44,671 bases of DNA, from positions 1-44,671 of the forward strand of contig JAPULJ010000735.1 of assembly GCA_027295145.1 (NCBI GenBank). The letters are read 5' to 3'. The stretch comes from Alphaproteobacteria bacterium. Its GTDB lineage: Bacteria > Pseudomonadota > Alphaproteobacteria > JAPULJ01. Of this stretch, positions 1 through 3,662 are shown piece after piece. The position numbers and the translations under genes are program-made. Position 1 is the stretch's first letter; the number at the start of each line of letters is the position of its first letter. The notes under the pieces were generated by a model that was given only the letters and a program-made list of their open reading frames with translations, had not been told where the DNA came from and did not search any database.

Positions 1-174
1 CGGCGAAATTTTGAAAGGCATGTAATATACTTGAATTTCGTCGTCGCCCCTCCCGTCGCCGGAACGTTTGGTGCGAATATTCAGTCCAAATGTTAAATCA
101 GCGCCCGTACTCCTGAATAGATTAGTCCCCGATCGTTATCATCGCAGTTGGGTATAAGTTAAAGGCGGCTGTTC

Positions 175-456: not shown

Positions 457-1794
457 CTAGAAGCTGTACTTGAAGGCCACCTGGACGCGGTGCACTGTAC
501 CGTTGGCGCTGTGTACGAAACCATCGAATTGGTAGACGTACTCCACGCCGATGGTGGTCTTGGGCACCGGGCTCCACAACAAGTTGGCGTGGATCGACCA
601 CACGTCCTGAGTTGTACCCGCTGCTACGCCAGCCTTTCCGGCCAAACCGCCCACGCCGGACGACGTCGAACCGGCGACATCGTTCCAGTTGCGGCCATAG
701 ACGATCGTGCTGCGGAGCGTGTCGGTCCAGCGATGCTGGAGCCAGACCAATCCACCGACAAGGGTGACCGCATCGAGTTTTGCACTCGCTCCTCCGGGGC
801 CGTTCAGGACCGCGTCCGAGTATGCGGCCGAGTAGCGACCGATGCCATCGCCGTAGTAGACCAAGAGGCCGGCTGCCGTCTTCTTGTTGTTGAAGCGGAC
901 GCCGGTACCGAAATGAATGCCCCAACCGAAATCGGTGTCTTGCGTCCCGGCACCATCGTCGACCTGAAGCTGCCTGATCAAGGCGGCAACCGAGACCATG
1001 CCCGCAGACCAACGATGCTGCAGCCTGACCACGAAGTCCGGCAAGCCGTCCGGCCCCGCGACCAATGGAGCCCCACCGTACGCGGCGGCAAGGGTCTGGG
1101 GGTTCTCGATCGAGAGAACCAGAGCCGTTCCACCGCCGAAGCTGTGGGTGTAGCGGATCTGGGCCTGACGGACGAAGATAACACCCCTCGGGCCGGCGAA
1201 GTCGAGGGTTTCCGGCAGCGCGTGCAACGGCATGAAGTTCGACCAGGTCTGACCGGCAAGAACCGGACCGAGACGGCCATAGGCGTGACGCAGACGCAAG
1301 CTGTTCGAGTTCGAGACAAGCTGGTTGCCACCAGTACCGAAAAAGTCACCCTGAAGATGGGTCTCGAGCTCCCCCCAATCGGTCGGGGTCCAGGTGCGGA
1401 TCCAGAAGCGCGACTGGCGGGCGTGCAGGCGGAAGTTCCCCTGCGCGCGAGCCGCAGCCGAACCCTCTGCCGGCCCCGCAAGAAGCAAATCGCCCGACGA
1501 AGCGTTGATATCGTAAATCAAATCCAACTTGGCGTAGCCGCCGATCTGCATCGAGGTATTGGTCCCCGGCAGCTTCCACGACCGCGGCTTGGCCCCCGAC
1601 TCAACCGCTGCCGCCGGAGCGACCCGGCGCTTACTGACTTGCGACTTCTCCAGCTGGGACATCTTGTCCTGCAGGCTCTGGATTTGCGAGCGCAACTCAT
1701 CAATTTGGTCCGCCGAGGCCGGAACCGAAGCCGCCAATAAGGCAACCGCGGCGCCCGATCCCAATAGGGCGGACCGCCAACTTGTTTGAACCAT
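457..1794 (-). CDS. DcaP-like outer-membrane porin
   Basis: The 445-residue product should be a trimeric outer-membrane channel for small solutes. A signal peptide ends near residue 28 (VPASA|DQ). Residues 30-55 form a short heptad-like coiled coil (DELRSQIQSLQDKMSQLEK), as found at the N-terminus of DcaP-type porins. After a linker, IGGYAKLDLIYD starts the barrel, with alternating polar/apolar strands up to a terminal Phe, the usual signal for the BAM complex. The start ATG has GGGGAG about 10 bases upstream. It is monocistronic, with its own terminator and a long AT-rich upstream region carrying a probable promoter and a phased Crp/Fnr-like array, so carbon- or oxygen-linked control is likely. 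The substrate cannot be read from sequence. Confidence 0.85.
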   Translation of the reverse strand: MVQTSWRSALLGSGAAVALLAASVPASADQIDELRSQIQSLQDKMSQLEKSQVSKRRVAPAAAVESGAKPRSWKLPGTNTSMQIGGYAKLDLIYDINASSGDLLLAGPAEGSAAARAQGNFRLHARQSRFWIRTWTPTDWGELETHLQGDFFGTGGNQLVSNSNSLRLRHAYGRLGPVLAGQTWSNFMPLHALPETLDFAGPRGVIFVRQAQIRYTHSFGGGTALVLSIENPQTLAAAYGGAPLVAGPDGLPDFVVRLQHRWSAGMVSVAALIRQLQVDDGAGTQDTDFGWGIHFGTGVRFNNKKTAAGLLVYYGDGIGRYSAAYSDAVLNGPGGASAKLDAVTLVGGLVWLQHRWTDTLRSTIVYGRNWNDVAGSTSSGVGGLAGKAGVAAGTTQDVWSIHANLLWSPVPKTTIGVEYVYQFDGFVHSANGTVHRVQVAFKYSF

Positions 1795-1937: not shown

Positions 1938-2045
1938 TTTAGTTTTACTCACTTTAAAGTTGGTTTTACTCACTTTAAAGTTAGCTTCACTCATTTTTTT
2001 GTGTAATGATTCACAATAATGTGATCGTACTCACAAATGCGTGAG
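1938..2045. promoter_or_regulatory. Phased array of Crp/Fnr-like sites upstream of the porin
   Basis: The core ACTCAC (variants ACTCAT, ATTCAC) recurs at 1947, 1968, 1989, 2009 and 2029, a spacing of 21, 21, 20 and 20 bases, that is two helical turns. The two distal copies expand to full Crp-type palindromes: TGTGA-N6-TCACA at 2020-2035 (perfect) and TGTGT-N6-TCACA at 2000-2015. The two copies at 1942-1961 and 1963-1982 are identical 20-base direct repeats. The rest of the 1795-2110 gap is AT-rich and holds no ORF; a weak hairpin (2071-2095) may end the upstream transcript. Confidence 0.6.
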
Positions 2046-2110: not shown

Positions 2111-2842
2111 TCAGAATTGCGGGCGCTCGATTCGGGATATCTCCAGTTCGGGATAGCGCGCCGCCATGGTTCTGGAGATGTAGGGGCACAGGCCGGTGTG
2201 GATCCGCTCGGCCAGCGCCCAAAGCAGTAAAAAATTTCCGGCTAGCATCGTATCAAATTCCCGCCTGTCGTCTTCGCAATGGTATTCGATATAGAGCAGG
2301 CCAACTTTGCCAAGACGATTGCCGAGGTTCGCCAGGATGGGAACCTCGCAACCTTCGGTATCGAGTTTGAGAACCGGGATTTCGTCGATCCCGTGGGACT
2401 CCAATTCCTCATCCGCCGCCACCAGCTTGATGATTTCATGATCGTCCGTCGTGCCGGCGTAGGCGACGACCGAGTTCTGTGCCGGCTGTTCGAACCCATG
2501 ATAGAGGCTGACCTCGCGGCTCGATTCGTAGAGCCCGTAGGGGTAGGCGCCGATGTTGGCGAAGCCGGAAATGTATTCGGCAAGGCAGGCATAACAATCG
2601 CGCGCTGGCTCGTAGCAGTGAAAGCTCGCCTCCGGGCAGGCGGAATAGAAATAAAGCGCGGCGGCGCCGATATTGGCGCCGAGATCGACGACTACTTAGG
2701 GCCGGTAGTCGGGAAAGTTCAGGATGGGGTACTCGCGGCCCCCTAAAATATGGCCGATGGAAACCTTAAGCTTGTCACTGGCGAGATATTTGAACGCCAC
2801 CTCTTTGCCGCGGATGGTGATCCGGCTGGTGTAGGTTCGCAT
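2111..2842 (-). pseudogene. FkbM-family SAM methyltransferase with an in-frame stop
   Basis: A single continuous frame of 243 codons runs from an ATG with GGAG six bases upstream to the stop at 2111, but codon 49 is TAA (2696-2698). The break falls directly before the SAM-binding motif VVVDLGANIG; the family usually has Lys or Arg there, so AAA to TAA is the simplest change. Downstream, the frame keeps CYEP (acidic ribose-binding position), KLDTEGCE and the C-terminal LYIEYHCED. FkbM enzymes O-methylate sugars, glycolipids or polyketides. No good restart codon lies between the stop and motif I, so the product would be inactive. It is 52 bases downstream of the thioesterase, also broken, and the two probably formed one operon. 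A sequencing error is not excluded. Confidence 0.75.
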
Positions 2843-2894
2843 CAGAACTCCGTTTTGCTCTTGTCCCAGGCCCACTGCCGCCCAGTGCGGGGCG

Positions 2895-3662
2895 TCAAAC
2901 CCAGCTGGTTTCAGCCCGGGCTACCTCCACCCCGCCCGAGCGAAGAAGCGTATGGTGAAAACGGCCAGGCACGATTTTGCCGGCGCGGGCACACACATCG
3001 TGTTCGAGCCCGCACTCGGCACGGAACACGACGTCGATGGTGGCCAGTGATTGGCCGCCGGCCGCGCGCCGCGCCGGCGGTTCCAGCAGATAGCCCATCA
3101 ACTCGGCGTTGTTGACGTGGCCGTTGGTGTCTAGATCAGACCAGCGGGGAAGGATGGCTTGCTCCACATCGTACATGTCCCGGCGCGAGATCGAGCGACA
3201 GGGGAACTCGGCCGAACGAAACTCATTGTGGATAATGTTCTCCACCAGCCAAGAGGGGCCACGGATCGCCTTGCGCGAACGGCCTTCGATCAGGGCCCAG
3301 GCGCTAGTTGCCGTGGCCAGCAATCCACCGCTATCGTCCACGACCCTGAAATCGCGAAAAAAAAGCTGGCGCGGCCACCGCGATGGCTAGGTTTCGACAG
3401 CGATCTCCTCGCCCCCGCCGGGCTGGCGAATGATGCGGATGAATTGGCGCGTCAAGACCCAATGGAGGTCCATTCCCGCCAAGTGTGCCGCACCGACGCC
3501 GAGCCGCTCGGCATGCTCGCCGGCGGCTTGTTGTAGGTAGTTGGCGAGTGGCACGATGCCGATCTTTGCGTCCGGGCCGGGTTCATGAAAGGGCACTCTG
3601 TACCGCGCCAAATGGTGGCTGGCGGCGATCTCATTGGATATTTTCTCGGGGCGGGCTGACAC
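2895..3662 (-). pseudogene. Acyl-ACP thioesterase with an in-frame stop
   Basis: One frame of 255 codons starts with GTG at 3662 (an in-frame TAG lies just upstream, so no earlier start exists) and ends at TGA 2895. Codon 92 is TAG (3387-3389), inside the family motif ETWPS, where the sequence reads VET-stop-PSRWPRQLFFRDF; TGG to TAG is the simplest change. The two halves are two hot-dog folds: the first has VPFHEPGPDAKIGIVPLANYLQQAAGEHA, the second LDTNGHVNNAELMGYLLE with the family's conserved Asn/His region. Intact members release fatty acids from acyl carrier protein. The premature stop removes the second domain. It lies upstream of a similarly broken methyltransferase. Confidence 0.75.

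Follow-up and report, generated by a model that had tools for sequence, protein, structure and literature searches.

A helically phased repeat with two Crp-like sites upstream of a DcaP-family porin gene

Direct action of CRP at porin genes is known from Yersinia pestis, where ompC, ompF and ompX are controlled in this way and each promoter shows a single Crp footprint (PMC3050693). Porin promoters are also bound by OmpR, whose sites of about 20 bp stand in tandem and consist of two 10-bp subsites each (PMC3050693). A further kind of repeated operator is read by ArcA, in which two to five direct repeats follow one another at 11 or 22 bp (PMC3798270). Searches of the literature with a limited set of terms returned no phased Crp arrays at porins.

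The locus described here lies in a 44.7-kb window (the whole stretch of DNA that was analysed). It shares with the Y. pestis porin genes a TGTGA-N6-TCACA consensus located upstream of a porin and a Crp homologue encoded in the genome, but it differs from them in having two adjacent predicted sites, offset by 20 bp and at a long distance from the ATG, together with three degenerate phased units. Tandem, helix-phased units of about 20 bp upstream of a porin are likewise seen in the OmpR sites F1-F2-F3 and C1-C2-C3 at enterobacterial ompF and ompC; however, the array examined here has no 10-bp subsite repeat and two of its units are palindromic. With the multiple direct repeats of ArcA (PMC3798270) it would have in common repeats spaced by whole helical turns, units of variable quality and extended occupancy, whereas the centre-to-centre distance is 11 bp in ArcA sites and 20–21 bp in the porin array, which gives no 11-bp signal.

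Layout of the porin upstream region

The porin gene belongs to the DcaP family, as its product scores 74.2 bits against the Pfam DcaP profile (cut-off 27). The intergenic region upstream is bounded by the porin start (1794, minus strand) and by the end of the preceding gene (2111, minus strand). The features of the region are as follows.

457–1794, minus strand: DcaP-family / Porin_2-like outer membrane porin, 445 aa (Pfam DcaP E = 1.3e-20, Porin_2 E = 1.4e-10)
1795–2110, no strand: intergenic region upstream of the porin, an AT-rich island (29–37% GC between about 1801 and 2100; contig about 60% GC)
1939–1959, no strand: unit 1 of the tandem repeat (21 bp), with its ACTCAC core at 1947 (best 16-bp Crp register −6.8 bits)
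1960–1980, no strand: unit 2, core ACTCAC at 1968 (95% identity to unit 1; −7.2 bits as a Crp site)
1981–2001, no strand: unit 3, core ACTCAT at 1989 (71% identity to unit 1; −15 to −16 bits as a Crp site)
2000–2015, no strand: weak Crp-like palindrome TGTGTAATGATTCACA, 9/10, core ATTCAC at 2009 (2.5 bits)
2020–2035, no strand: perfect Crp-like palindrome TGTGATCGTACTCACA, core ACTCAC at 2029 (15.5 bits; centre 20 bp from that of the 2000–2015 site)
2030–2045, no strand: overlapping inverted repeat CTCAC-N6-GTGAG (from the sequence and the half-site positions)

The original prediction described five ACTCAC cores on one face of the helix. All five 6-bp cores lie where they had been placed (1947, 1968, 1989, 2009 and 2029), in steps of 21, 21, 20 and 20 bp and in phase, but the letters ACTCAC are found only at 1947, 1968 and 2029, while the core reads ACTCAT at 1989 and ATTCAC at 2009. 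Two further elements of the prediction were confirmed. The 20-mer GTTTTACTCACTTTAAAGTT is present twice in identical form, at 1942–1961 and 1963–1982, and its origin by tandem duplication is real, as the top-scoring tandem repeat of the whole window (Tandem Repeats Finder) is a 21-bp unit in 2.8 copies at 1939–1997. Because of this tandem repeat, units 1–3 are regarded as duplication-related and not as independent sites. The one perfect TGTGA-N6-TCACA and the one nine-of-ten match correspond to 2020–2035 and 2000–2015; elsewhere in the window no site has fewer than two mismatches.

The centre of the perfect site is located about 233 bp upstream of the porin ATG. The inverted repeat that overlaps it at 2030–2045 contributes the fifth half-site in a series with 10-bp steps: GTGT at 2001, TCAC at 2011, GTGA at 2021, TCAC at 2031 and GTGA at 2041. 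A consensus scan of 1700–2200 identified no sigma-70-like promoter, and a terminator scan gave no match.

The porin upstream region is real in its pattern: it is non-random and helically phased, and two of its five units are Crp-like. Its periodicity is stronger than in shuffled DNA, part of it being owed to the 21-bp tandem duplication. That the pattern is a chance one, seen post hoc within AT-rich DNA, is extremely unlikely. Such a reading can point to the choice of the core after the fact, to the two copies of five that deviate from the exact core, and to the shuffling results for chains of five similar 6-mers, which did appear in one of 150 dinucleotide shuffles of the 316-bp intergenic region and once in 200 when its AT-rich core was shuffled, any 6-mer and any near-constant step of 15–40 bp being allowed. 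However, GTGA/TCAC half-sites number 12 where 2.4 are expected, a count reached in none of 2000 shuffles. Crp-like palindromes with at most one mismatch occurred singly in 1% of shuffles, and two together in none of 5000. The porin pair, with 1 mismatch in 20, is moreover the best 20-bp-spaced pair in the 289 alphaproteobacterial genomes searched, in which just two other pairs reach 2 mismatches and the control gave none. Because units 1–3 are duplicates, units 3–5 were tested separately, and with units 1 and 2 left out the lag-20 self-identity still has a z-score of 3.5.

Crp-like sites and a Crp-type regulator in the genome

The assembly comprises 5.42 Mb in 813 contigs (93% complete, 6.8% contamination). 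Only one protein was found in it that joins a cNMP-binding domain to an HTH_Crp_2 domain, encoded at G000:C83:22239-22937 on the minus strand; the other cNMP-domain proteins that were inspected in the assembly have no Crp-type HTH. The recognition helix of the C83 protein, TTRETVARAL (RETVxR), contains the RE..R signature of a regulator of Crp-type operators and corresponds in alignment to SRETV in structures of M. tuberculosis CRP. The pattern Arg-Glu-x-x-x-Arg is that of regulators reading TGTGA.

A genome scan for the motif, which had been suggested as a check of the original prediction, revealed that TGTGAN6TCACA is enriched, with 73 sites at one mismatch or fewer against 33 for the reversed-pattern control. 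Sixteen sites are perfect (TGTGAYNNNNRTCACA) and have in common a Y at position 6 and an R at position 11. Several TGTGAN6TCACA sites lie next to predicted exported proteins that match no Pfam family. Pairs of TGTGAYNNNNRTCACA exactly 32 bp apart were found at five loci, and in the control at none:

G000:C142:1847-1894, C284:4676-4723, C331:7348-7395, C304:8788-8835 and C568:1899-1946: 32-bp TGTGAYNNNNRTCACA pairs

The pair loci on C284 and C331 are variants of one locus, 93–95% identical. Since five such pairs stand against zero in the control, pairing is a trait of the genome's site set, and the 32-bp pairs represent a candidate Crp regulon with a fixed tandem geometry. The porin pair shares with them the genome, the palindrome and the pairing on one helix face, but those pairs are strong and GC-rich and several lie near predicted exported proteins, whereas the porin pair is spaced by 20 bp, weaker and AT-rich.

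In order to score the five units, a matrix was built from the genome's own other Crp-like sites; these training sites score 17.6–24.7 bits, in a comparison that favours them. The 2020 site scores 15.5 bits, the 2000 site 2.5 bits and units 1–3 between −6.8 and −16 bits in register, and by this score units 1–3 were rejected as Crp sites. The palindrome TGTGA-N6-TCACA with its N6 spacing is present only at 2020 (10/10) and 2000 (9/10). The 2020 site matches the genome's site consensus, TGTGAY-N4-RTCACA, in one half only, and both sites deviate at positions 6 and 11, where the other genome sites nearly always have Y and R. The proposal of five Crp/Fnr sites therefore survives for two units that are Crp-like and fails for units 1–3, which match TGTGA-N6-TCACA at no more than 6 of 10 positions (at least four mismatches). 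Its Fnr part was not upheld, as no Fnr/FixK-type operator TTGAT-N4-ATCAA was found in the units and the half-sites read TGTGA/TCACA. Because units 1–3 fail as Crp sites, the five-site reading is an over-reading; these units are a degenerate 21-bp tandem repeat that offers at best one half-site. Crp-type control through the two candidate sites is plausible.

Comparison with other porins and genomes

The genome containing the window is the sole member of its family and order in the comparison set. It encodes further DcaP-type porins that are 50–59% identical to the one studied here:

G000:C459, C242, C40 and C256: four added DcaP-type porins, an expanded porin family

The array is missing from the upstream DNA of these four paralogues, which is readable in each, and no Crp-like site with at most 2 mismatches was found there. 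A second copy of the 3' end of the window's porin gene, with the DNA downstream of it, was observed at the end of contig C142, matching window positions 1–153 and 383–556 at 95% and 80% identity. This copy stops at the contig edge and reflects either a duplication or strain variation within the bin.

The closest porins found in other genomes are about 43–46% identical, and those examined are without the array. In 80 DcaP loci from other genomes, an upstream site with at most one mismatch was found in 2 (0.6 expected) and one with at most two mismatches in 6 (8.0 expected), i.e. Crp-like sites are not clearly over-represented in front of these relatives. The five-core chain was found in none of the 79 distant DcaP loci with enough upstream sequence. 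Apart from this locus, a search of 385 alphaproteobacterial genomes with a three-core pattern retrieved only an ACTCACT microsatellite, which is unrelated. As the array is missing from the genome's own paralogues, from the 79 DcaP upstream regions and, the microsatellite apart, from the 385 genomes, it is, within the reach of this comparison, specific to its lineage.

Possible control of the porin and neighbouring genes

We tentatively favour, while giving it somewhat less than an even chance, a Crp-type tandem pair accompanied by degenerate duplicated repeats as the element that would control the DcaP-family porin. The Crp-family regulator encoded on C83 would most likely bind as two adjacent dimers on one helix face, at the strong site 2020–2035 and the weak site 2000–2015. 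The three promoter-proximal 21-bp units would be degenerate tandem duplicates that retain their helical phasing together with a single TCAC-like half-site. Cooperative binding may use them as extension sites of low affinity; alternatively, they may be no more than a phased, AT-rich stretch separating the Crp pair from the promoter of the porin. The outcome would be a porin level coupled to a cyclic-nucleotide (carbon or energy) signal. The analysis shows the sequences, their phasing and its significance, a Crp-type regulator whose recognition helix is of the TGTGA type, and similar sites across the genome; from these we infer Crp binding, its cooperativity, the ligand and the direction of control. 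In Acinetobacter baumannii, growth on a number of di- and tricarboxylic acids depends on DcaP3 (PMC12338516), and by analogy with this role a carbon-linked Crp control of the porin would make sense.

The Crp pair is supported by its perfect and nine-of-ten palindromes 20 bp apart, two such sites having appeared in no shuffle; by the enrichment of TGTGAN6TCACA in the genome and the frequency of tandem sites; by the one Crp/Fnr-type regulator found, with its TTRETVARAL helix; by the lag-20 periodicity outside the duplicated part; and by the direct action of CRP at porin genes in other bacteria (PMC3050693). It is weakened by the scores of both sites, which fall below those of the training sites, by their deviations at positions 6 and 11, by the failure of units 1–3 as Crp sites, and by the lack of a clear excess of such sites at the 80 DcaP loci and of any at the four own paralogues. 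It is weakened also by the position of the strong site, which is the farthest from the gene; the distance to the ATG is beyond that usual for direct activation and, without a long leader, large for RNA polymerase to be touched directly. The porin locus is plausible as a Crp target with an odd layout, and the stretch is probably an unusual yet otherwise ordinary promoter control region.

What all five units have in common is a direct and not an inverted repeat, and units 1–3 have no Crp match. Both features would suit another regulator, of the OmpR, PhoB or ArcA type, that reads AYTCAY every 20–21 bp on one helix face, the palindromes being incidental or belonging to a second factor. Porins are classic targets of tandem OmpR sites of about 20 bp (PMC3050693), and ArcA, with its two to five direct repeats, provides a precedent (PMC3798270). 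However, the 10–11 bp subsite periodicity that is expected of response regulators was not detected (lag 10 z = 0.5, lag 11 z = 0.9), and no regulon is visible, since the 18-bp repeat unit has a single 3-mismatch match elsewhere in the genome, at control level, and the two-core pattern is rare there. We consider such a regulator possible but unlikely. Equally doubtful is that units 1–3 have no specific binder and are an AT-rich, possibly curved stretch, or one targeted by an AT-binding nucleoid protein, that owes its periodicity to 21-bp slippage duplication and lies beside a genuine Crp-type site or pair. Units 1 and 2 indeed differ at just 1 of 21 positions, the GC content drops to 29–37%, and the strongest 10.5-bp-phased A-tract signal of the window lies here, but this phasing is not above that of tract-order shuffles (p = 0.17), and the helical phase extends across units 4 and 5, which are not duplicated, so that slippage alone is insufficient. 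DNA curvature gained no support, as the A-tract phasing, although the highest in the window, does not go beyond composition.

Very unlikely, in our estimate, is a phased operator made of all five units, on which a side-by-side Crp-family assembly would extend from the strong distal nucleation site to the porin promoter and give graded or switch-like control. We know of no description of such porin control by a five-unit phased operator for Crp. If true, Crp-type dimers packed every 20 bp along some 100 bp upstream of one porin would constitute an unusual cooperative operator architecture, and nutrient signalling would be tied to outer-membrane permeability in an uncultured alphaproteobacterial lineage.

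Two consecutive genes upstream of the porin are broken. The first, at 2111–2863 (minus strand), is an FkbM-type methyltransferase frame interrupted by a single in-frame TAA at 2696–2698; the FkbM match of its C-terminal part is slightly under the Pfam cut-off, and either pseudogene formation or an assembly error is the probable cause of the interruption. The second, at 2895–3662 (minus strand), is an acyl-ACP thioesterase frame broken by a single in-frame TAG at 3387–3389.
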